Positions 3,418-17,300 of a stretch of 64,000 nucleotides of DNA are shown here, piece by piece. Source of the stretch: Opitutales bacterium (GTDB lineage Bacteria > Verrucomicrobiota > Verrucomicrobiia > Opitutales > JABSRG01); assembly GCA_028280845.1 (NCBI GenBank), contig JANQKZ010000038.1:248001-312000 (forward strand), read 5' to 3'. The notes beneath the pieces were generated by a model. The model was not told the DNA's origin and did no database searches. It saw only the letters and a list, made by a program, of their open reading frames with translations. The translations under genes were made by a program, and so were the position numbers. Position 1 is the stretch's first letter. The number at the start of each line of letters is the position of its first letter.

Positions 3418-3770
3418 GGGGGTGTAACTGGCATTCGACCTCATAGCGTAGGTTCAGGTTGCAAGTCGGAGTTGATCGCTGGGCTCCGTATCAAGGCGAT
3501 CAATAAATATTAAATGGCGAAGATTACGCCATGGCTGCCTAATAGTTGCAGCCCGTGTCACCCTTGACGCCTTCTAGGGGAGTGACACGTCGTGAGAAGG
3601 TATAGCGGAAGTTCTTGTCCCGGGAACTCCCGCCGTACTTTTCCGGGAATAGCTGATCGGTAGCGTGTCGATGCGCGACCCTGAGGCGAAATGCAAAGTA
3701 TCGACTAAGCTTGTAGATACCCGTTCAGAAAGTATGAGGGACCCGGGTTCGAGTCCCGGCACCTCCACCA
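3418..3770 (+). ncRNA. ssrA: tmRNA (transfer-messenger RNA), complete
   Basis: The 5' end GGGGGTG (3418-3424) pairs with CACCTCC at 3760-3766, just before an encoded ACCA, forming a seven-pair tRNA-like acceptor stem with one G-U. The universal TTCGAC follows the 5' strand, and a T-arm CCGGG-TTCGAGT-CCCGG precedes the 3' strand. A tag frame ending GEDYAMAA then TAA TAG lies at about 3514-3545. An in-frame TAA upstream limits the tag to at most eleven residues (ILNGEDYAMAA); the resume codon is not certain. tmRNA with SmpB rescues stalled ribosomes. Its 3' end is a common integration target, and here it abuts an integrated element. Confidence 0.9.
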
Positions 3771-3912
3771 TTTTTCCCCAGGCTCCGCTTGGCTGGAAAA
3801 ATGAGTGCCACGCCATAGCTCCAGAGGAGCGACGGCGGGCCCCTCCGTTTCGGCGTAGCTTGCTCCAACGCAAGCGAAGACGGACACACCCGTCCAAAGG
3901 ACTTTTCTCACC
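3761..3912 (+). repeat. attL-like direct repeat (tmRNA 3' end and downstream)
   Basis: Begins with ACCTCCACCATTTTTCCCC, the tmRNA end and following T-run. It continues with a palindrome-like segment (CTCCGCTTGGCTGGAAAAAT) and the motif GCGTAGCTTGCT...AAGCGAAGACGG, ending at CTCACC. Nearly the whole stretch recurs at 7805-7952 with scattered substitutions and small indels. Confidence 0.75.
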
Positions 3913-4003: not shown

Positions 4004-5044
4004 TCACTTGCGGTTCTTCTTAAAGTAGTCGTAAGCCTCATTGATTTTCTGCATTTCGACCTGTGCGAGCTCGCGCAAACCTTCGCTCACACTGGCCACC
4101 TTGTCGGGATGATAGTCAGTGGCCAGACGGCGATAGGCGCGGCGGATATCCTCGATTGGCGCATCGGGCGCAACACCGAGTACGCGCGCATAGTGCTCTG
4201 AATCCCGCTTTTTATGGGTTTCTCGATGCGTTTTGTATTCCTCGTAATCCGGGCTTGAAATGTGAAAGATCGACGCTGCTTCACCGATAAGCAATTCCGC
4301 TTCGGCGCTCATCTCGCCATTGATCACACTGAGGATAAAAAACGCCTTCAATGTGTCTACGAGTTGCTCCGGGTTGCTTCGTGTAGCCTCATAAAAGCGG
4401 CGGGCAGTGACAGCAAAATCAATCTCCTGCGTCAGCATGTAATGAAAAATCTTGAGCGCTTCTATGCGGAACTCATCAGGCATTCCAACCGCATGCTCAA
4501 AAAACCCGTCTACCGCATTGGTCTCCTCGTCCGATACATTCCCGTCGCTCTTAGCTATCGCCGCCAGCAATGCAATAAGGTCGACAAAATCGTCTGTCAG
4601 CTTCTGGGTCAAATGTTCATAGCGGCGGATATCCCGCCCAGAACCTGTTGAATGAGAGGCCGCATGCGCCGTTTCTGGCGGGCTGTTTTGATGCGATGGT
4701 GCACCAAATTTATTGACCTTATCCTCACCGGGATAGCAGCCGACTACGATAAAATACCCTAGCCAGCCTACCCACGGAATCATCATTGGAAGCAGCCACC
4801 AGCCAGACTTACCGAGATCATGCAAGCGCCGCACAGAAATGGAAAAAAATCCCGTTACGATGCCAATGGAAAACAGGAATAATATTACGCTCATCAGTGG
4901 CTCTAGGGCCGGGAAGCCTTCTGCAAGAGCCGCGCATATCATCAGGCAGATGAAATAACTACCGAACAAACCGCCTAGCCCCTGCCAATAGGTTTTGCGG
5001 TTTATCCGTCCGGTAAATGTGAACCCGTCATTACTGCCGCTCAT
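4004..5044 (-). CDS. DUF805-TerB/DjlA-DnaJ fusion membrane protein
   Basis: A 346-residue protein with three modules. Residues about 10-110 are a DUF805 membrane domain (GRINRKTYWQG, RRLHDLGKSGWW, several hydrophobic helices). Residues about 145-255 are an acidic helical TerB/DjlA-like domain (LLAAIAKSDGNVSDEE...FILSVINGEMS). Residues about 283-346 are a C-terminal J domain with the catalytic HPD at 312-314. The TerB plus terminal J layout resembles DjlA, a membrane-anchored co-chaperone that stimulates DnaK, but the DUF805 anchor is different. It is the most downstream gene of the island's leftward set. A role as membrane-linked co-chaperone is inferred; its target is unknown. Confidence 0.8.
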   Translation of the reverse strand: MSGSNDGFTFTGRINRKTYWQGLGGLFGSYFICLMICAALAEGFPALEPLMSVILFLFSIGIVTGFFSISVRRLHDLGKSGWWLLPMMIPWVGWLGYFIVVGCYPGEDKVNKFGAPSHQNSPPETAHAASHSTGSGRDIRRYEHLTQKLTDDFVDLIALLAAIAKSDGNVSDEETNAVDGFFEHAVGMPDEFRIEALKIFHYMLTQEIDFAVTARRFYEATRSNPEQLVDTLKAFFILSVINGEMSAEAELLIGEAASIFHISSPDYEEYKTHRETHKKRDSEHYARVLGVAPDAPIEDIRRAYRRLATDYHPDKVASVSEGLRELAQVEMQKINEAYDYFKKNRK

Positions 5045-5154: not shown

Positions 5155-6003
5155 TCAACCTTCATCGAGGTTGCTGACCATCCACTCCCCATCCTCAATA
5201 ACGACACTTGCTTTTATGCGCTTACCTCCGTATTCCAATGTCACCGCGCCGGATCGACCATCAATGTCTTTAGAGATGAATTGATAGTGTTTGTAAAACT
5301 CCGGGTCGCGTTTGTGACCGGTGATGATGTTCAGCTCAGCGGCAGAACTCATCCATTTATCGCTGTATTTCCGCGCATCCGCTTCGTTCCCGGTGGCGAT
5401 TGCCGTGAAGAAACGATACACGGCCTGTTCGGGTGTATGACTACGGGTGAACTCCTTTTTTGGCTTGGGCGGTGCCGGAGCTTTAGATGATGTGGTTCTA
5501 GACGGAAATGGTGTGACCTGATCACTGCGCAGGGATTGGATTTCGATCGTTTGGTGCAAAATACCGCCGCCACTGCCGACGAGCGCCATTTCAAATGATG
5601 TGGGAATGGTCACCTGAGACCCCTGCGCACGCTCGCGAATATCAAAAGCATCGCCTGGCTGCACCGCGATGGTCGGCATACGTCGCTCCAACCTGTCCGT
5701 ACTGCTCACGTCATAGCGCACATAGCCGCCTCGTTTATTAAAGGCAAAGGCCGCTCTTTCCCATTGGTCTATAATGGCGATGCGTTGCCGCTGGCCCGGC
5801 TTGACTTCATACCATCCACGGCTTCGGACTTTGCTCCAGCCATCGCTTGAGTGAAAGAAGCCAAGCCATCTGGTATCCCCAAAAGCCACATGGACTGTTT
5901 CATCGCCAGTATTACGGATGTAAATATACATCTCGCCACCACTCGCATGAGCCGATGCTGCGAACAGGATTAAAACGAAAAGCGTCGAGAATAGATGTTT
6001 CAC
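5155..6003 (-). CDS. Secreted protein of unknown function (island cargo)
   Basis: 282 residues from a GTG start, beginning with a clear signal peptide (MKHLFSTLFVLILFAASAHA). The middle part (MYIYIRNTGDETVHVAFGDTRW) looks like a small beta-rich domain. A proline/lysine linker near residues 170-185 precedes a C-terminal 95-residue region (HTPEQAVYRFFTAIATGNEADARKYSDKW...GEWMVSN) that resembles NTF2-like/DUF4878 lipid-anchored or periplasmic domains. I do not recognise the full protein. It lies 27 bp after the small membrane protein at 6031-6165 and about 110 bp before the DnaJ-like gene, all leftward. Confidence 0.65.
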   Translation of the reverse strand: MKHLFSTLFVLILFAASAHASGGEMYIYIRNTGDETVHVAFGDTRWLGFFHSSDGWSKVRSRGWYEVKPGQRQRIAIIDQWERAAFAFNKRGGYVRYDVSSTDRLERRMPTIAVQPGDAFDIRERAQGSQVTIPTSFEMALVGSGGGILHQTIEIQSLRSDQVTPFPSRTTSSKAPAPPKPKKEFTRSHTPEQAVYRFFTAIATGNEADARKYSDKWMSSAAELNIITGHKRDPEFYKHYQFISKDIDGRSGAVTLEYGGKRIKASVVIEDGEWMVSNLDEG

Positions 6004-6194: not shown

Positions 6195-6446
6195 TTAGCC
6201 GTTACCGCCAGAGAACACGCCGATCAGCAAAAAGGCACCGACCAGCAGGATGGTGAGACCCATCCCACGGCTATACATGGCAAAGGCAGTGCTGAGAAAA
6301 AAGCCGAGTATGGCGGCAAGAACCGGATCAAGGCCGAGATTGCGACCAAATAATAATCCAATCGCCGCGCCCATGAAGGCCGCAACCGCCGCAATGGTAT
6401 TGCGGCTGTCGAAGTCCGACTCGATGGTATGACGGTTGGTTGGCAT
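6195..6446 (-). CDS. Small two-span membrane protein
   Basis: 83 residues with a polar N-terminus and two or three hydrophobic segments (TIAAVAAFMGAAIGLLFG; PVLAAILGFFLSTAFAMY; LTILLVGAFLLIGVF). No known domain is recognised. It is 29 bp upstream of the 44-residue membrane protein, so these two, the secreted protein and the DUF805-TerB-DnaJ protein may form one membrane-associated unit. The left 31-bp inverted repeat of the recombinase unit begins 49 bp upstream of its start. Confidence 0.5.
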   Translation of the reverse strand: MPTNRHTIESDFDSRNTIAAVAAFMGAAIGLLFGRNLGLDPVLAAILGFFLSTAFAMYSRGMGLTILLVGAFLLIGVFSGGNG

Positions 6447-6495: not shown

Positions 6496-6526
6496 ATGCA
6501 ACAGTTTGGACAAATTGTTGCGTTTT
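6496..6526 (+). repeat. Left 31-bp inverted repeat
   Basis: Starts ATGCAACAGTTTGGACAAAT and is identical to the reverse complement of 7186-7216. In the rightward direction it reads MQQFGQIVAF and then a stop, the same first ten codons as the recombinase gene on the other side. Confidence 0.9.
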
Positions 6527-6532
6527 AAGGTC

Positions 6533-7216
6533 TCATTTTAGGCTCTTTTGGTCAAGAGGATTAGGGTATTTTACCCAGTTAGGCTCAACTGCGAGTTTCA
6601 TGGTCGCTTCTCTGAGCACATCTAGGTCAAGCGTATATATCGTCGTGTTCTTCACATTGGCGTGGCCGAGGATTTTTTGCACAGTAACCAGATTTTCTTC
6701 CTGGTCATGCAGCGCGTGGCGGCCCACCGCATGCCGCATTCCACGGGGGCAGGCCCGTCGGCCCGTCAACTGAACGTATTCCATTACCCCTTTGACCCAA
6801 CGCCAGCCGGTCTGACGACAAACCGGCCAGAGCAGGCGCTCCGGCGGCCCTTGCAGATCAAAGCAGCGTTCAAAGAGCTCAATCCATGATGGCAACAGCG
6901 TGTAATAGCGATATCGCGGCGGCTCGCCGGGTGGTTGGCGCGTCTTTAAAGATGCTATGCGCAGGGTTTCATAAGAGATCAGCACATCGCCGAGTGTGAT
7001 ACCAAGGGCTTCTGAGATGCGCGGACCGTAATTGAGTAATGTCAGGCAAAAAAGCTGACGGTGCAGTCCTTTCACGCCGAATGGTATCGCCTCGGCGTAA
7101 CGTAAGCGTTCGTCCTGAGACAGGTATTTTGGGTCTCCAAATGGGTGTTCTGGGTCATAGATCGGTTTCATGGTCATTGTCTTAGAAAACGCAACAATTT
7201 GTCCAAACTGTTGCAT
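6533..7216 (-). CDS. Short tyrosine recombinase/integrase
   Basis: A 227-residue protein with a tyrosine-recombinase catalytic domain: R66 in GPRISEAL, K91 in SLKTRQ, R161 in RGMRHAVGRHAL, H185 in ILGHANVKNTTIYT and the nucleophile Y194. The box II position three residues before R161 is Arg, not the usual His. The N-terminal arm-binding domain of phage integrases is missing, and the core-binding part is very short. The ATG at 7216 lies inside the right inverted repeat; a later ATG (MTMKPIYDPEHPFG, residue 14) would place the start outside most of the repeat. It may act on its own flanking repeats, or on the ssrA att sites, or both. Confidence 0.85.
   Translation of the reverse strand: MQQFGQIVAFSKTMTMKPIYDPEHPFGDPKYLSQDERLRYAEAIPFGVKGLHRQLFCLTLLNYGPRISEALGITLGDVLISYETLRIASLKTRQPPGEPPRYRYYTLLPSWIELFERCFDLQGPPERLLWPVCRQTGWRWVKGVMEYVQLTGRRACPRGMRHAVGRHALHDQEENLVTVQKILGHANVKNTTIYTLDLDVLREATMKLAVEPNWVKYPNPLDQKSLK
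7186..7216 (-). repeat. Right 31-bp inverted repeat
   Basis: Perfect inverted copy of 6496-6526. It contains the recombinase ATG and its first ten codons, so the site and the gene start are fused. Confidence 0.9.
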
Positions 7217-7342
7217 TCGGCAAAAGTCAGAGGGGGCATGTGGGCGTAAGTAAGTGAGAGGGGAGTTCGCAGCAATTACTTAGGGAATGCCAAGCGAACG
7301 TATAGCAATTTGGCCAGCGTTCATGTGAGTGAAACCGTTTTG

Positions 7343-7611
7343 ATGAGAGGGGACTATCTTATGCTAATATATCGAAATTTCACATCTCTAAAGAAACTTA
7401 ATCGTAATATCGGGCTCAAATTGATGCATCTTCGCGTGAAGTCATCGACTATGAAAATGATCGCTCAATTATAACCGCTCCTGAGTTTGTGCGCTTTTGC
7501 CTTTGCTTGGAAGAGCCGGTTGAATCTTTCGTTTTGCCACCTGAAGGTAAGCGCCCGGTGTATACCCACGGGTTGGCCCTCGATAGTGAGGATTGCTGGA
7601 TTATGCTATAG
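7343..7611 (+). pseudogene. Possible frameshifted small gene
   Basis: An ATG at 7343 reads MRGDYLMLIYRNFTSLKKLN and continues to about 7411. Coding-like sequence then continues one frame over, QIDASSREVIDYEND through YTHGLALDSEDCWIML, to a TAG at 7609-7611. Joining the two frames near 7411-7425 would give about 88 residues. No homologue is recognised. It could be a decayed cargo gene of the island or a chance pair of frames. Confidence 0.3.
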
Positions 7612-7687
7612 ACCGGATGAAGTGGTCAATAGTGGCAAGAGATGACCTCAATGTTGAGGATCTATGTGGAGAGGTAAGCAAAAGGAG

Positions 7688-7798
7688 TCATCCTGCGTAT
7701 TTTAAGGTTTCTCACTGTTTCCCTAATCGTTTTCCCGCAGCGGATTCGTCGTCCCCTGGATCACGGATTTTTCCTCAATATTAAAATACGCAGAATGA
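7688..7798. repeat. 18-bp inverted repeats near the right att copy
   Basis: TCATCCTGCGTATTTTAA (7688-7705) and TTAAAATACGCAGAATGA (7781-7798) are inverted copies with one mismatch, separated by 75 bp. The right arm ends six bases before the right att-like repeat, so they may be arm-type recombinase or accessory-protein sites. I see no gene between them. Confidence 0.5.
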
Positions 7799-7804
7799 TC
7801 CCTT

Positions 7805-7952
7805 ACCTCCACCATTTTCCCCCAAGCTCTGCTTGGCTGGAAAAATGAATGCCACGCCATAGCTCCAAAGGAGCAACGGCCGGCCCCTTCATTTCGGCGT
7901 AGCTTGCTGCAACACAAGCAAAGACGGGCACACCCGCCTCAGGACTCTCACC
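7805..7952 (+). repeat. attR-like direct repeat of the ssrA 3' end
   Basis: Repeats ACCTCCACCATTTT-CCCC and about 130 bp more of the sequence after the tmRNA, with roughly 20 differences. It is not a second tmRNA or tRNA: upstream of ACCTCCACCA there is no T-arm or acceptor partner. The stretch from 7953 to 8159 is C/A-rich and holds nothing I can support. Confidence 0.75.
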
Positions 7953-8159
7953 AAGTAGGGCCCGTTGCTCGTCAACGTGGCCACTCCCAGCCCCAAATCC
8001 CCCCAAAAACGGAGGGCACCGCACCAAAGCGCAGCCACCTTCCACCTGCAACATGCACCCCGCACCTGCCCCATCCCCATCTCCTTAAAATTCAACCAGT
8101 CTCCAAAGATCTGTTTGCCCACGCACCCAGTGCATATTAATTTGTTCGATGAACAAAAA

Positions 8160-9092
8160 ATGAACTATTACGCATGCCCAATTTGCAGGTCACCTTGCCG
8201 AACTATATCTCCTGAAGGTTTTCAGAAAGTAGATTGCCCTAGATGTGGCACCTACAAGATTGGGCACACCCCATTGGCTCTGCTCGAAGCCCAGGACATT
8301 CCCAAAGAAATTAGATGGAATATATCCAGCTACATTCATTCATTGAAGGAATACACGTTAAAGGCGGAAACGATTGAAGATCTGAAAGAAGTTCACCCCC
8401 CTAGAGTATCTGAACGCGCCGAAAGTTTACTCCATCACCTTACCCGTCAATACCCAGTTCCCGGAACAAAGATCAAAATTCATCCAGGTAATATGATTTA
8501 CATATTCGAAGTCCTCTCAAAGCAGGAGGAACCTGAATACATTGAATCACTAAAAGTTCCCTTGGAAATATTCTACGAGTACCTCCCTATATTAAGCGCA
8601 GGTTGGATTACCTCTCTTAAGGAACTAATATTTTTCCTAACCGAGTATTTAACTTCAGATTTAGGATATTTGGAAAAAAGAGAAAATAATGAGTACTTTA
8701 TTTCAGCAAGAGGATGGGATTACGTTCAAAATACCCAAAAGGCAAATGACAGTAATTCTATTTTTGTAGCCATGAGCTTCAGCTCCGACTTGGAAGACTT
8801 TTACCTCAATTTGGTTGAAAAGGGCATAAAGAAAGCTGGCTACGACCCAATTAGAGTGGATCGAACTGAGCACGTGAACAGGATCGATGATGAAATTATT
8901 GCTTTAATTAAGCGGTCAAAAATGGTGGTGGCTGATTTCACGGAGCAAAAAAACGGTGTCTATTTTGAAGCAGGTTTTGGTCTCGGACTGGGAATCCCAA
9001 TAATTTGGATGTGTCGACACGATGATTTAAAAAGGGTCCATTTCGATACTAGACAGTACAACACAATAGAATTGGGATCCCGGAGATTATGA
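8160..9092 (+). CDS. Zinc-ribbon plus deoxyribosyltransferase/TIR-like protein, apparently frameshifted near its end
   Basis: Start at ATG 8160; the frame is open further upstream, but that part is low-complexity. Residues 6-29 form a zinc ribbon (CPIC...CPRCG). Residues about 40-195 are an unrecognised helical middle. Residues 201 to the end are a nucleoside 2-deoxyribosyltransferase/TIR-like Rossmann domain (IFVAMSF, MVVADFT, GVYFEAGFGLGLG). The annotated frame ends in GSRRL. One base earlier or later at about 9072, the sequence continues WDPGDYEDGINKLQIRIEAIGG to a stop at 9157-9159, which is the normal end of this domain. A single extra T in GAATTGG would explain it. The substrate is unknown; such domains occur as nucleotide-hydrolysing effectors in defence. 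Confidence 0.75.
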   Translation: MNYYACPICRSPCRTISPEGFQKVDCPRCGTYKIGHTPLALLEAQDIPKEIRWNISSYIHSLKEYTLKAETIEDLKEVHPPRVSERAESLLHHLTRQYPVPGTKIKIHPGNMIYIFEVLSKQEEPEYIESLKVPLEIFYEYLPILSAGWITSLKELIFFLTEYLTSDLGYLEKRENNEYFISARGWDYVQNTQKANDSNSIFVAMSFSSDLEDFYLNLVEKGIKKAGYDPIRVDRTEHVNRIDDEIIALIKRSKMVVADFTEQKNGVYFEAGFGLGLGIPIIWMCRHDDLKRVHFDTRQYNTIELGSRRL

Positions 9093-9213
9093 GGACGGAA
9101 TCAATAAGCTCCAAATTCGGATAGAAGCTATTGGAGGGAGAGGAAAAAATAAAAATTAAACATCGAACAAGCAGTCGACGGCACCTCAGCTAGGTCGTTA
9201 TCCTTAGAAAATT

Positions 9214-9918
9214 ATGCCAACACAACTAAGAGCATTCTTTGCTAGTCCATTCGCTGATGAATACCAGTGGATACGGGACGCAATTGCGACTGCTTGCCGG
9301 GAGATGGATGTGGATTTCCGGGCAGTGGACGAGAAAGTCGTTCCTGGAGAATCGATTATTGATTCTATCCACACGGAGATCGCAACGGCTGATATCGGTA
9401 TCGCTGTCATATCTGGCTTCAACACCAACGTGATGTATGAATTGGGACGGCTTCTTGGGGGTAGCAAACCGACCATTCTTGTCGCGGATAAAGAGAGTAT
9501 TTCGAACCTTCCTTTCGATATGAAAAGCTTTTCCATAGTCGGATACGACGCGAAAGCGAAGGACGCAACAGACTTGACCAATGTTATCGCGAAAAGCCTA
9601 GGTAAAATTAAAGGCGCAATGAGAGGCGAGTTCCTCCAAGCGGTAGCAACTAGCAAACCTCTGCCTGAGAATTTATCGACCTTAACTTCCACCATTACAG
9701 CATCCGAAATTCAGTCGCTGTCTGCCATCGATTGGGGCTCAGTGAAAGACGAAGGCGAGAGGATGCTCGGCAAGTCGGGCTGCAAATCGATTGATGTGGA
9801 GGTGGTTGAAACCGATGACTTTAAAGGCTGGCGACAAACCCTTGATTGCCCTTGCGGAGATACCGTAATCATCATTGTTGACTTAAACGGGGACGTGAAG
9901 CGAGCGAAGGTTCGATGA
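9214..9918 (+). CDS. Deoxyribosyltransferase/TIR-like nucleotide-binding protein
   Basis: 234 residues. The N-terminal 120 match the deoxyribosyltransferase/TIR-like Rossmann pattern: FFASPFADEYQWIRDAI, then ESIIDSIHTEIATADIGIAVISG, then NVMYELGRLLGG with the likely catalytic Glu at residue 76, and LPFDMKSFSIVGYD. The C-terminal 100 residues are unassigned and contain a CPCG pair. It follows the frameshifted zinc-ribbon gene by 54 bp in the same direction and shares its fold class. The two may form a nucleotide-sensing or nucleotide-degrading pair; no enzymatic activity can be assigned from sequence. Confidence 0.7.
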   Translation: MPTQLRAFFASPFADEYQWIRDAIATACREMDVDFRAVDEKVVPGESIIDSIHTEIATADIGIAVISGFNTNVMYELGRLLGGSKPTILVADKESISNLPFDMKSFSIVGYDAKAKDATDLTNVIAKSLGKIKGAMRGEFLQAVATSKPLPENLSTLTSTITASEIQSLSAIDWGSVKDEGERMLGKSGCKSIDVEVVETDDFKGWRQTLDCPCGDTVIIIVDLNGDVKRAKVR

Positions 9919-9997
9919 AACTCAAACTAAGGGATAATAAGGCAGTGGTGGTAACGTTGCTATCACGCCGCACCACACTTTGACATTAGATGAAAAA

Positions 9998-10684
9998 ATG
10001 GAAAATGAACCAATACTTGGCTTAATCAAATTTGGTAGCTCCGAAAATCTAGAAAAGTTGAGATCGAGTGGACAGGTATACATGAATACCTGGGGTTATT
10101 TTAAACGGCTTGAATCCAATCAAGTTCAAGGTGACAAAGACGAAGGCCTTGTTTCCATGTATCAAACCTCCAAAGGAGCGAATTTAATGATTCGGGTTGA
10201 TGGAGATTTTCAACCAATCAAACATCTTACGGGTCAGATAAAATTCACCTCAGGAAAGTTAGAGGATTTTAATTTATTTTGTTTGTTCGCCCTTACAACG
10301 GAGAGTTTTTCCTACCTATCCGATGAAAGAATCCAGGGTTTCGGGGATTCTGCCCTTACTTTTTTGAATGGCGACGAATTTCTTGGACGGTTAAGAAAAC
10401 GATTAAAAGAAGAGGATTTGGCCTTTGAAAGTGCCCTTGTGGAATATGTTAAAAAAGAGGAGTTTCACGGAAAAATGGGGCCATTTCGAAAACTAGAAAC
10501 ATATTCTTACCAGAACGAGGTTCGAATATTTGTTCAGGGAAACTGCAGCGGACCATTAAAGATCAATATTCCTAGCATTGAGGATATTAGCGTAATTGTT
10601 CCAATAAATGACGTTACAAAGCATTTAAGAATCATCAAGGGGAAAGAAAAGGAGTCAAACGCAGAAAACGAGAATCCTAACTAA
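9998..10684 (+). CDS. Unknown protein (FGSSENLEKL...MNTWGYF type)
   Basis: 228 residues from ATG 9998. It begins ILGLIKFGSSENLEKLRSSGQVYMNTWGYFKRLE and a few residues later has GDKDEG. This start pattern recalls a widespread group of uncharacterised proteins with a conserved K-F opening, an N-T-x-x-Y-F segment and GD-x-x-EG. There is no signal peptide or membrane segment, and the C-terminus is lysine/glutamate rich. It is rightward, 79 bp after the preceding gene, in the same AT-rich block. Function is unknown; co-location with two effector-like fold proteins is the only clue. Confidence 0.6.
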   Translation: MENEPILGLIKFGSSENLEKLRSSGQVYMNTWGYFKRLESNQVQGDKDEGLVSMYQTSKGANLMIRVDGDFQPIKHLTGQIKFTSGKLEDFNLFCLFALTTESFSYLSDERIQGFGDSALTFLNGDEFLGRLRKRLKEEDLAFESALVEYVKKEEFHGKMGPFRKLETYSYQNEVRIFVQGNCSGPLKINIPSIEDISVIVPINDVTKHLRIIKGKEKESNAENENPN

Positions 10685-10735
10685 ACAAGCGCTAGTTACC
10701 GCTGCCCCTGGGTTTTAAAATGTGCAAACCTTAAG

Positions 10736-10754
10736 TTTAGCTTAGAAAGCTAAA
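10736..10754. terminator. Weak hairpin between convergent genes
   Basis: TTTAGCTT-AGA-AAGCTAAA forms an eight-pair stem with a three-base loop between the rightward gene ending at 10684 and the leftward gene ending at 10841. No T-run follows on the plus strand, so termination is uncertain. Confidence 0.3.
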
Positions 10755-10840
10755 GTTCAATAAATGTATAAGCTCAATGTTTGATCCCCTTTTTTGTTCT
10801 TTTTACTTTCTGTGTATAGGGACCGTTCATTTCTATCACG

Positions 10841-11308
10841 CTAATCTCTTCTCCAAATAAAATCTCCTCTTACCGAATCCCCCTCGATTTCATACATAAC
10901 AATTGAGTCAATTTGATATATCCCATAATCGCTGTATTTATCCATATAGTCAAATTTACCAATAATTTTGGAATAGCTATTTTTCAAGTCCTGATTAAAA
11001 ATCCTTTCCTTTTCAGGCGTGAAATCATCAATAATTATTGATGAGTCAATATCATACATAAAACCATGTTCTTTTGTAAGATATAGTCGAGCATGCGAAT
11101 CTTCTCTAATTAAATAACCATATATAACTACCTCTGCATTTGAAAATTGACTAGGATTGGCCAAAAGGCTTAAGAGAGACGGCTTTTGACCTCCGTTCTG
11201 ATTGCTATCTGTGCACCCTGCAACCCAAAGCATTAGTAATGCAATAGCTGCTATTTTCTTTATTTTAGCCTCAAGGGAAGGGATAATATGGAATCGGTTC
11301 TGAATCAT
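10841..11308 (-). CDS. Small lipoprotein downstream of the RHS gene
   Basis: About 155 residues from ATG 11308; a GTG at 11338 would add ten. A lipoprotein signal (KKIAAIALLMLWVAGC) has a VAGC lipobox, followed by a roughly 120-residue domain with LLANPSQFSNAEVVIYGYL, which recalls OB-fold or lipoprotein beta-domains. The start overlaps the end of the RHS gene by 38 bp. That is the position and arrangement in which immunity proteins or partner lipoproteins of RHS toxins are found, so a protective role is possible but not shown. No ribosome binding site is evident; translation may be coupled. Confidence 0.65.
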   Translation of the reverse strand: MIQNRFHIIPSLEAKIKKIAAIALLMLWVAGCTDSNQNGGQKPSLLSLLANPSQFSNAEVVIYGYLIREDSHARLYLTKEHGFMYDIDSSIIIDDFTPEKERIFNQDLKNSYSKIIGKFDYMDKYSDYGIYQIDSIVMYEIEGDSVRGDFIWRRD

Positions 11309-14300
11309 CAGTATTTCGGTAGAGATAGACGGTTTCACTGTTATAGGGGATTATGTAAACAGGTTTATTCCCAATATTATCTACAATGTTCCGATAGTAC
11401 AAATTGTTCCTCCCAGAAACATCTTGGGAAGATATTGATGGGGGAGTACCTATAATTAGTGCAGCAACCGTTCTATTGAAAGGAAGCTCTCTCTGGTTTG
11501 GCCAAATAGGATTACCGAATACATTTATAATTTTGCCATCTCCCATTTCTGGCCGAATCTCTCTTTGCAATTCATAATTTTCAATAAAAAAGTCCTTATC
11601 TTCAGGTGAGTCGTGTTCAAAGATAAAAGCTCCGAGGGCATTCCCCCTGAAGTCAACACCTGGAAGTAATGGATCTCTTCTAGGCATATTTGCATCCTGC
11701 AATGCTCTTCTTACTCTTAAGATTTGCTGATCCACGGCTCGCGTAAATGCATCAGCAAATTCTTCATATTCGCTTTCATCCATTAACTCCCCAAACTCAG
11801 CGATGAACTCTGTATCATCTCTATGAAAACCCATAGCCAAAGGCTTCATTCCTCGCGCGATATCGCCGATGGTTACAAGGCCCTGAACCGGCTTTCCATC
11901 AACTTTCTGAACTCTCACAGTATGTGTGACAGTCCAATCAAAATTATTCCATCTTTCCATATAATCGTTAGGGGGAGAGATGAGGTATTTCCCCTCCCAT
12001 CCTGCACCATAGGCAGCATCCTTCTCTGCTAAGTATTCATCACGCTCATACTCGCTTTCAAAATATTCTCCATCTGCTTCCCATTCCGTTGGCGGACGAT
12101 TTGGCGACATCCCTAAATAATCCCAACTGTTGATCGGGTCATTACCAGCAAAGGCATATAAATTAGCACCCCCGGCCTCGCCGATGGGATCCCGGTTGAT
12201 GAACCGCCCCTTCCTGGAATCATAGAACCGGTATCCGTAGTAATAGAGATCCGTATCCTGGATACGGAACTTCGTGCTCCAACTAGGCAAAAGGACGGAT
12301 AAGGCGGCGGACTCCGTATACGAATGATATTGCTCGCGGATCATCTGGCCGAACGGGCTATATTCAAATTGGGCCGCGATCGTATTGGCGTTATAGTCAA
12401 GAAAGCCGGTTACATTGCCATTTCCGTCGTAGAAGGGAATATAGCAGTGGCCATTGTAATTCTCCACCGCAAGGAGCGCCCCTACTCCACCCGCCGCAGT
12501 TAAGCTATCCATCATGTCCAAGCCCCAGGAATAGGACCTGTACATTGTTGTATTATAAACCGCAGCAATAATCTGATGGCCATTATAGACGAGAAAATAG
12601 CTGTAGACCCGATCATCTGAACCTTCGGACCGGTCTTCATAACAGGCGATCCATACTAACCGGCCGAGGTAGTCATACCTAAAGGTGAAAAGCAGCTCCT
12701 CGTCATTGGGCAAATGGCCAACCTCGCTGTATGGCAAAACAACCATTCGGGTTACTCGATTCTCCGCATCATAAGTAAATTCCCACTTGCCGTCATCCAG
12801 CAGGTTCCCGTCATCATCATAGCCGAGGTCCCTGTGGTTCTGCCGAATGAAGTCATAAATATTCGAAGTGGGATTACTGCCTCCATCGATAATTTGTAAC
12901 TGGGCTGAATCCCAGACTGCTTCCGTGGCATTGCTGTCTGTGAGGGAAGAAAACTCGTGGAAGTATAAGTGGTTTTCCTGCGCTGTGACCCCATCCACTT
13001 TTGCGCTGTAAGAGGTAAAGTCCAGGAAGCCGGCCACACTGATTTTGTTGGGCTCCGACCGGCTTTCAATCTGGTTCAGGGCATTGGAGTTCCACGTGTC
13101 GGGGGTTAATCCATCCACCGTGGCAACATCCCGATTCCCGGCCTCCGTGTAGGAATAGCTATAGTCCCGGCCGCTTAACGGTAAGCCCGTCATTCCGCCA
13201 GAACTGGTGCGTTGATATGTGATGGCTCCCACCAGCTGATTCCTGTCATCGTAGGTATAATTGGTGCGGATACCATACGCCCCATAGGGATCAAACAGGT
13301 CGCCTTGCATATGGCATGTCGCTCTTGAACCGTTGTTGTTATAATCGTATTCATACCGCGCTACCGTATTAACTCCGGAAGTATTGCTAACCGAAATGAC
13401 ATCCAGCAGGTTTCTACTTTGCAGATAGGTCTTCGTCAGCTTGTAAGTGGCGCCTCCACCTAGTTTTACTTCACTCACCCGGTTTGATTTCGAGGCATAC
13501 GTATAAGAAAATGTTCCTGCAGGGGTAGCCACACTTGAGATTCGCCCGGTCGTGGAGCTGAAAGTGTATCCCACATCCATTTTCTCCGTGGTGTTCTCCC
13601 AGTAACTATACCCGGCATATCGCCCGAGGTTGTTTCCGGTGCCGTAATTGTAAACCACTTTTCTCCCCGAACCATAATCCGCGGGCAAAAGCTCTTCCTT
13701 CAGGGATAGATCGGTATTGTAGTTGAAAGTGCGAGTGCCCAGCCCATCCGTCACTGTTTTCAGGGCGCCATGCCGATGATAGGCATATGTAATATTATCA
13801 GTCGTTCCACTGTCATTGTACGTTTTGCCGGCAAGTCTTCCCCAGTCATCGTAAGAATAAGTGGTCTTAACCCGTGTTGATGTTCCAGACAGGTATCTAT
13901 CCCATTGCCGATTTTTTACGCCTCCATGCTTAAAATAATCAAATTCTGTAAAATAGGACAGAGCATCTGTTTTCTTATGCAGGGAGCCATCCTGCGCATA
14001 GTAGGTAAATGTCGTGCTATTCCATGTTCCGGAGGGAAGGTTGTTGCTTCCGGTAAAATTCGAATTATTGGTCTGGATCGTTTTGAGATCTCCGTAGGTG
14101 GAGTCATAGGTGTACTTAGTCGGAGTAGTGAGGGCCCCATACATTTCGGTAAGCTGCCCCCGCAAGTTGTAAGTGTAAGAAACCTTATCGCCATCCTGGT
14201 TAGTTTTCGAACTCACTCGCCCCATGTTATTATAAATATAATTAAAGTAATTCGAAACTCCGGTTTCCTTTTCTTGTGAAACTAAATCTGTCCCTGAGAT

Positions 14301-17300
14301 GTAAGTATATTCCCTGCCGTGCCAGCTATCCCAGGCCTCATTTGTGAGGCGACCATGGCTGTCGTAGGTGTAGTTCACAATGGGATGAGCAGTATCGACT
14401 AACCCCGTATTCAACTCATGGGATTCACTGACCAGAAACCCTGCCAGAAACCTTTTCCGGTGATAGTTACTCTGATTGGGAGGATCTGTGAAAACCTCTC
14501 TTTCATCGTTTAATGGATTAACCTCTACCCAGGTAGTGGTCACCAGGCCATTGACGTCCACAGCTTTTGATTCCGCCACCTTAGTCGAAGTCAGTCCGGT
14601 CAATCTCTCCTTAATCGTAGACACTAAGGTGGTTGAGGTATTATTGTCTGTGGGGTAAATCGTCGTCGCGGTTTGCTTCCACCAACTGCCGCTCTCCAGG
14701 ACATACGAAGTTTCATTGTGCGAGATGGAATCCTTTGAATTGGTTTCCAGGACCGAATCCCCATCTTCGTCTACTCCGAAGTTCGCGAGTTCAGCCGTGG
14801 TATCGTATTGATACAACAGGTCCCCTAATTCTGACCGAGTTGTTTGAGTTAGCTGCCCCGAAGCATTGTAGGTATTCCCTTCGATGTATTCCCCGGCTGA
14901 GGTGTTCTTGCGGGTTTCGTAGGGACGACCCAGCCAATCCATTCGGGTTTTCAGCCAGCGGCTCGAACCGCTGCTTCCGGAGTTTTCCTTAACTTCCGTT
15001 TTGTAATATCCACCGAGGGAAACAAAATCATAGGTGTTATAACTGGGGACAACCGCGGTTCCCGTAACTTCATCCAGCAATCCATTGTAATGGAATTTAG
15101 TGGTTTTCGTTCCCCCATCGGGGTAAGTCTCTATTAAGGTGCGCCCCCCGTCATTTTGATCATATTCAACTAAAATCGAATTTGAAGTTGTTGCATAGTG
15201 CTTGGCTGATTTCAGGTGCCCGCCCAGGGTATAGACGTATTCCGTAGTAATTTTGTTGGACGACCCCAGCTCTTCTTTTTTCAAGCGACCCGCCTCATCG
15301 TAGGTCAGATACGTGTAGATAAATCCGCTTGTTGGGTGAGGTCTCTTGATCTGGGTGATCTGCTGCAGATCGTTGTAAGTGTACTCCGTTCGGACTCCCG
15401 CCTCATCCTCATCCCAAATTAATTTACGGCCGGTATACCCCGACTTACGAAGCGTAGCACTGCCATTGTTCAGGTCCCTCACCTGTGTGATCAGCCTTTG
15501 ATAATTATAGGTGAAAGCGTATTCCTTTAGTACTGCTTCTCCTGAGGCGTATTTTACTAACAACTTCTCATTAGTCGTTCTTCCTTTGGCATCTACGGTC
15601 TTAGAGTTAATTGTCGTTTTATTGTTCACCGCGTAGATGTCAGCCACCACATTATGTCCCGTGTAAAGACTCCCCCCTGAGGATGAGTTTTTATAGCCCA
15701 TAACCGTGTTGATTGTCGTAGTTGTAGAAAAATCATATCCATAGGCCACCATCGTATCATCGGGGTATTCCACAGCGAATGGAATGTTATCATAGAGCCC
15801 CCCATCGATATAGGCATACGTGACTGTGGTATTTTTATTGGAAGCATTTCCATCCGGATACGCGTCGATTTGCCGCTTCAGGACCTTTCGGTTCCCTGTA
15901 GACGAATCATCGATGTCGGTATTCGTGATAATCGTATTGCCTACTTGCCGGGAAGCGGTGCCTTCCTTCACATATTTCAATATTTGAGTGGATAAGATGT
16001 CTCTTTTGTCAGGGTCTGCCTCATAGGAATATTGCGAATATGTGATGTTGCTGGAACCGGTGGATGGAACTGTAGTGGGTCGCGTAATATCCGTCCAGGG
16101 GCCGAATTCCCGATACACTTGCCCCCTTGAAGACCATGCATTGTGGTAGGTGAACCAACTCCAGTTTCCGTCCGGATAGGCTATTGATGACACCTGGCGC
16201 ATGCCGGCACCATCGGAGGATGAGGTATAGTAGTAATAATTCGTGATGAAGTCCAAATTCTGGTTGTCAGTATCTTTTAGGACTTTCCTCTGGGTGAGTT
16301 CACTGCCCCACGAGTAAGTTGTAAATGTATTGATGACTTTCGAGGCAATGGTGGTATGGCCCGCGTCATCGGCAATGGTATAGGTTTCCACATTTCCTGA
16401 ATACGTTTTTTTGTGACTCTGAAGGACCGAAGTGAAGGTCTTTAACTCCATCCTGTAATCTGTACTGCTGACCTTTTTATACAGGGTATAATAGTTGCCA
16501 TCGCTATCGACGTTTTTTCTGACTAATAGCTGATCTGTAGCAGGTTTCGTAAAATAATAAGAAACCATGGTATCGTCTTCAGACATGGAGTAATAGCCAC
16601 CTGAACTGTTCCAGGTAACATCATCAGGGTCATGGAATTCAATTTTGAAGGCATTTGTCCCCGTTCGCGCAATATTGATCAGCGCGTTCGGGGTCATAAT
16701 CTGCTTCCAGATCGAGCTGATGTTGATTTCTTCAATTTCACCGTAAGAAGAGTAGAACTCGACCGCATCGATCGTATAGAGAATGGAATCAAAGGAAGAC
16801 CTTCGAATCATTAATACACCCGCCGGGTTTCCATTCACCCGGCTCCCTGCACTGACTCCCCAAATGATTTTATCTTTACCGAAATCTTTTACCACTTCTT
16901 CGCCACACATGACAGCCTCTCCGGTTAAGGACGGGACAATTGTCACTGTGTGGACATCGCTACCCGGCACCGGGAGCAGCTGCTGCCCCGGCTCGGTCAA
17001 TGAGGCCGGAAGTGAATCAATGATAACATCGTAGCCTGGAATCGTCCTTGCATAAAGCCGGTACCCCAGGATGTCATCCCAACTGAGGGATAAGTTATAT
17101 GTCTTATTTAGTTTCAGGGAAGTATACCCGGACGCACCCGTGAAGGTACTAGCTATATTTCCCCCACTCGCACTGGCCCCATTGAGTGTCAGATTTAAAG
17201 TGGGAGACCCGGGACCAACCGTATAAGCCCCGTCGAACCATACCGGGATTTCGACTGGATTGTCGAGTTGCTGCCCTAAACAGGCAACAGCAGATGCAAA

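Follow-up and report, generated by a model that had tools for sequence, protein, structure and literature searches.

In Salmonella, the Hin serine recombinase acts at hix sites with a 2-bp core, together with an enhancer and Fis. The fim recombinase genes, by comparison, lie outside their invertible element. The halovirus phiCh1 has an invertible region with int1, a tyrosine recombinase gene encoded within the segment that it inverts; work by Roessler from 2004 is cited in PMC8371274. The recombinase of the Hin system is also encoded within its invertible segment (PMC5903667). Several switches of C. difficile depend on the tyrosine recombinase RecV (PMC5903667), and the c-di-GMP phosphodiesterase gene pdcB of this species is controlled by an invertible switch (PMC9286219). 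In Akkermansia muciniphila and other gut bacteria, invertons consist of inverted repeats with embedded promoters, and PEP-CTERM proteins are found among the regulated genes (PMC11892184).

Here, we examined a 721-bp unit in the window, that is, the whole 64,000-nucleotide stretch of DNA from an Opitutales bacterium that was analysed. We propose, with a probability of about 0.78, that the unit is a self-inverting cassette that hands an outward promoter between two neighbouring genes, Y beyond the 3' end of its recombinase gene and X beyond the 5' end. In this mechanism, a small tyrosine recombinase would bind both inverted, near-palindromic end sites and synapse them, and strand exchange within their short identical spacer would turn the whole unit in place, recombinase gene included. 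The outer half-sites would remain with the flanks and the inner half-sites would travel with the unit, as is seen when sphingomonads are compared.

The 721-bp unit and its surroundings

The unit, to which no strand is assigned, spans positions 6496 to 7216, limits that are drawn from its repeat pair and from relatives, the latter being where inversion was seen. A repeat search found the 31-nt arms at 6496-6526 and 7186-7216 to be 100% complementary and 659 nt apart, and the chance of a perfect 31-bp pair within 721 bp is negligible. The original prediction of perfect 31-bp inverted repeats bounding a 721-bp segment was thus borne out, as were its statements that a tyrosine recombinase (a 227-aa ORF on the minus strand) is the only gene inside and that the left repeat reads as ten codons, MQQFGQIVAF, and then the stop TAA. 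The site at the 3' end of the recombinase gene (6496-6526, plus strand) consists of half-site ATGCAACAGTT, spacer TGGACA and half-site AATTGTTGCGT, with the spacer limits placed from the palindrome and the relatives, and the site at the 5' end (7186-7216, minus strand) is identical but inverted. In a search of the 4.79-Mb genome, the site pattern was perfect at two places only, both of them the window repeats. A third match, with 2 mismatches, lies on contig C7 within an ordinary ORF and was read as incidental rather than as a further site. With inverted repeats and a matching crossover region, the window unit has the build of an inverton, or site-specific invertible segment.

The recombinase ORF (6533-7216, minus strand) encodes a catalytic domain only. 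It matches Phage_integrase (PF00589) with E=3.9e-10 and 40.2 bits against a cut-off of 27.1. The residues R66, K91, R161, H185 and Y194 stand at the positions originally named and align with the catalytic residues of relatives, with R158 in place of the usual H/K ahead of R161. This profile match and the set of R, K, R, H and Y point to a tyrosine recombinase. Its best NCBIfam matches are XerD/XerC, followed by weaker invertase and integron models, all of them far below their cut-offs. The invertase models NF007371 and NF007370 give 20.6 bits (cut-off 222) and 12.6 bits (cut-off 221), and membership in the FimB/FimE-type DNA invertase family was rejected because these scores fall well under the cut-offs. 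An AF2 model of the protein (pLDDT 81, pTM 0.77) has XerH, XerA and IntI4 as its nearest structures, and in a phylogenetic tree the protein has a long branch and is weakly grouped with L021, L023 and L024. The start codon within the repeat was upheld only in part: the ORF does open there, at 7216, but this start is not conserved and seems likely to be incidental. In relatives, coding begins just downstream of the site, and in L021 the within-site ATG is out of frame. The real start of the window recombinase is likelier M14 (7177) or M16 (7171).

Beyond the 3' site, neighbour Y (6195-6446, minus strand) encodes an 83-aa membrane-like protein, starts 49 bp outside the site and runs in the same direction as the recombinase. 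It is followed in this direction by genes for a 282-aa protein with a signal-peptide-like start and no family (5155-6003, minus strand), a possible further target, and for a 346-aa DUF805-TerB-DnaJ protein (4004-5044, minus strand). The 3' end of the unit faces Y and these followers (6446 to 4004). No relatives of the 282-aa protein were found in 177 genomes of the order, and a scan of the window flanks with the neighbours of other units yielded no homologues of X or Y. The flank at the 5' site (7217-8160, no strand assigned) holds no intact outward gene, X being missing or decayed. Because no intact gene remains there, the window copy is at best a one-sided switch; it may be intact but one-sided, or it may be starting to decay. 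A single orientation of this copy was seen; to judge from its intact catalytic residues and perfect sites, it would still invert.

The unit sits inside an island of ~4 kb, a setting that the original prediction did not mention. Its left border is the 3' end of ssrA, the tmRNA gene (3418-3770, plus strand). The island lies between two copies of a 132-nt, att-like direct repeat on the plus strand, the left one (3761-3892) starting within the final 10 nt of ssrA and the right one (7805-7936), 90% identical, forming the right border. Genome-wide, this repeat has strong matches only at its two places in the window. The island contains no other obvious integrase, and a role of the unit as the island's integrase was rejected because its 31-bp site is unlike the tmRNA repeat. 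At the right end of the island, 7682-7804 holds an imperfect 24-nt inverted repeat with arms 75 nt apart, and an arm has two more weak matches in the genome, on contigs C42 and C11, which make up a small repeat family. Just outside the island, at 8160-9918, two adjoining genes have weak matches to Nuc_deoxyrib_tr/TIR-like domains and are possibly defence-related.

Site pairs and inversion among relatives

A search of 132 related genomes found 11 further loci in 9 other genomes, at 28-41% identity, and 9 of the 11 are flanked by inverted repeats of ~17-29 nt that span ~640-790 bp. Further loci were gained from a wider sample of 384 genomes of the class with an alignment-based search. An inverted site pair surrounds the recombinase in 23 of the 28 class loci examined, window included, and these paired units measure 0.64-0.79 kb between inverted, near-palindromic sites of ~27 bp. 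No second site was found in L017, L019, L071, L072 and L074, and the paired units showed no third site in about 16 kb. When public genomes were scanned with the window protein alone, no relatives were found; the scan needed an alignment of family members as its seed, and it then returned >300. Among the best 80 of these, site pairs occur in Verrucomicrobiota, several sphingomonads, Cohaesibacter and Magnetococcales, and in most alphaproteobacterial members one palindromic site lies upstream or no site could be recognised.

Each site is built of two half-sites of ~11 bp flanking a 4-8-bp spacer, and many fit the form TGAAACAGAAT-spacer-ATTCTGTTTCA. Within each unit's pair the spacers are identical in inverted orientation, and between units they vary (for L065 and L076, this identity rests on site centres placed by eye). 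The half-site arms, in contrast to the within-pair spacers, differ at several positions. Spacer identity within pairs fits strand exchange by a tyrosine recombinase, whereas binding alone would not need it.

Inversion itself is visible when relatives are aligned. In L246, one species compared with four relatives (L241, L242, L244 and L245, themselves colinear across the locus) from an enlarged sphingomonad sample, only the 899-bp unit is reversed and the flanks are colinear; the flanks align on one strand and the unit on the other, overlapping only in the ~25-bp sites. Between Sphingomonas pokkalii (L141) and Sphingomonas sp. ATCC 31555 (L147), the flanks lie on opposite strands and the unit on the same strand, and the outer half-sites travel with the flanks. 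At the protein level, the EAL gene of SYK-6 (L155) lies on the opposite side of the unit from that in L140 and L166. Moreover, the assembly of Sphingobium faniae contains a 908-bp unit twice, identical, on two contigs that both end at the 3' site and whose flanks diverge beyond the 5' site. This fits a mixed culture with both orientations, and two separate copies of the unit are a possible alternative. The earlier suggestion that the unit could invert itself is thus well supported at the family level, by the frequency of paired sites (23/28), their matching spacers and clean inversions between species. In L244 and L246, the recombinase ORF extends across the 3' site and ends in the flanking DNA, so that each orientation would give the protein a different C-terminal tail.

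Neighbouring genes, promoter and alternative readings

In most units, gene X starts outward 10-60 bp from the 5' site, and the start of gene Y is often no more than about 60 bp from the 3' site. Such short distances require the promoter of X to overlap the site or to sit in the unit. The Verrucomicrobiota often have as X a PEP-CTERM protein (L021, L023-L026, L080) or, alternatively, a 74-aa protein that matches no Pfam family, and often have an HTH protein as Y. The 74-aa protein, conserved as MTIQKILGENGP...CPAAI...VQGY in L065, L067-L069 and L071-L075, begins ~16-46 bp away from the 5' site or the gene start, often with a DUF6082-like membrane protein beside it. The X gene of sphingomonads encodes an EAL protein and stands at the head of operons with SapC-like and two-partner-secretion-like proteins (L244, from translations), with a BapA-type adhesin (S. 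faniae, by similarity) or with SCPU pili (Sphingomonas parapaucimobilis, by annotation). Directly after the unit of L026 and an HTH gene, 9120-14758 holds a locus with a Cas9-like protein (1098 aa), Cas1/Cas2-like genes and a repeat array, identified from translations.

Across 31 units, the 3' end scores higher than the 5' end for an outward sigma-70-like promoter (Wilcoxon p 8e-5 to 9e-4) and also higher than the same DNA read inward (p=0.001). An alignment of five species shows TTGCCA-17-TATTT[TC] at the 3' end, with the -10 element in the outer half-site, and 9/10 third codon positions are invariant there, versus 79/187 in the core of the gene. The EAL gene has TTGCCA-17-TATTTC in L246, where it is faced by the 3' end of the unit, and lacks it in the orientation in which the 5' end faces it. 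In the window unit, the 3' end showed no convincing sigma-70-like promoter. The original prediction was that the unit could turn its own promoter on or off, which we replace with the better-supported idea of a 3'-end promoter facing either neighbour. A motif outside the 5' site, TTGGTTAG, was considered as the recombinase promoter and fits better as the 5' leader of gene X; in the window it occurs on the other side, which hints only too faintly at a flipped orientation to be relied on.

With this promoter-like signal at one end, inversion probably transfers a promoter between the two neighbours. The outward promoter would lie at the 3' end of the unit, with its -35 element inside the unit and its -10 element in or beside the site, and its passage from Y to X would make surface proteins or regulators phase variable. 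X would be off in the common orientation and on once the unit has flipped. The chief point against simple phase variation is the orientation bias in Verrucomicrobiota, where X lies at the 5' side in 15 of the 15 loci with a recognisable X. Inversion in this phylum thus appears to be rare, one-sided or selected against, and not a free 50:50 exchange; the X-off state may be favoured in sequenced cultures, or the conditions for flipping may rarely be met. We put forward only tentatively, and with more doubt than belief, the broader reading that such units are widespread self-contained switches in which a recombinase flips its own gene between divergent targets, passing on a site-split promoter, with some members biased and feeding back on themselves. 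In those members, inversion would alter the recombinase's own upstream region and its C-terminal tail.

The recombinase could be read differently, as an enzyme serving mainly in multimer resolution or of resolvase type that was inherited from plasmids or integrative elements, with the second, inverted site a by-product and inversion of little regulatory meaning. Plasmid members L034, L035 and L036 carry one palindrome, such as TTAACACTATTACCAATAGTGTTAA, ~90-110 bp upstream of the gene, several plasmid members adjoin parA or rep genes, and relaxase, MobC, antirestriction or ParB genes occur close to many units; the five class loci in which no second site was found point the same way. We nevertheless consider this reading unlikely, since the paired state is clustered on the tree and recurs in several lineages (at least nine changes are needed), spacers co-vary within pairs, neighbouring genes start at the sites, and actual inversions are seen in relatives. 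The one-site plasmid relatives suggest descent from resolution systems or exchange with them. On the alphaproteobacterial plasmids of L030-L034 and L037, a small WGR-domain protein regularly accompanies the single-site recombinase. Two family recombinases lie ~5 kb apart on the complete chromosome of L085 (G531), and L155 and L166 each likewise hold two.

A further proposal has the unit as a minimal insertion-sequence-like element that moves by its terminal repeats; the original prediction had also considered a minimal IS-like element. Its compactness, terminal inverted repeats and scattered taxonomic distribution would suit such an element, as would the few genomes that carry two to three copies (G442, G292). 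However, the window's genome has a single copy, the duplicates in G442 and G292 share about 170-830 bp past the repeats, the flanking genes X and Y are conserved in relatives, flipped loci keep the unit in the same place, and two inverted sites yield inversion, not excision. An insertion sequence would be expected to show multiple copies or insertions that end precisely at its terminal repeats; none appeared in these comparisons, and we abandon the proposal as extremely improbable. The repeats might instead be operators for repression by the recombinase or a neighbouring HTH protein, the window unit then being a degenerate or captured copy without recombination. The long branch of the window protein, the missing X gene and the lack of a clear promoter in the window are in keeping with this. 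It is very unlikely all the same, as the catalytic residues are retained and both repeats are perfect across 31 bp, including a spacer whose identity binding would not require. We therefore retain the self-inverting cassette as the preferred reading.

Comparison with described inversion systems

If the cassette works as proposed, it would be a compact, portable phase-variation switch, recognisable from sequence alone because enzyme, sites and promoter share one unit of 0.7-0.9 kb. In Verrucomicrobiota and sphingomonads, two groups in which phase variation has received little study, it would predict which surface proteins, c-di-GMP enzymes and adhesin operons vary. The units could also find use as small tools for inversion. 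The one-site plasmid relatives suggest a path from a resolution system to a switch through gain of a second, inverted site.

Part of this is already known, namely a recombinase within its own invertible segment (Hin and int1 of phiCh1) and PEP-CTERM invertons in Akkermansia. We found no description in the open-access literature of a tyrosine recombinase version this compact and widespread. The original remark that no well-described family has this exact build thus stands for that literature but not for the principle, which is textbook knowledge from Hin.

Among the described systems, FimB and FimE resemble the cassette as short, catalytic-domain tyrosine recombinases with surface-adhesin targets, and NCBIfam invertase models match weakly, but the fim recombinase lies outside its element and the sites differ from those of the cassette. 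The site shares half-sites of ~11 bp with XerCD/pdif but is unlike dif by eye, and pdif passengers use the host XerCD, whereas the cassette carries its own recombinase. The phiCh1 segment is larger, belongs to an archaeal virus and exchanges parts of structural-protein genes upon inversion. The C. difficile switches share inversion upstream of c-di-GMP genes, comparable to the EAL gene in sphingomonads, but RecV acts in trans and is not encoded within the switch. The Akkermansia invertons are close in phylum (Verrucomicrobiota), inverted repeats, promoters and PEP-CTERM targets, but they are tied to invertase genes by proximity (PMC11892184), while here the invertase gene fills the segment. 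Like the H segment with Hin, the cassette has inverted sites, the recombinase inside and an end promoter that inversion would redirect, the Salmonella segment being ~1 kb long. It differs in having a tyrosine recombinase, half-sites of ~11 bp, a spacer of 4-8 bp and a position between two outward genes, and membership among the Hin/Gin/Pin invertases was rejected because these are serine recombinases. By analogy, we file the cassette as a putative tyrosine recombinase counterpart of the Salmonella Hin segment.
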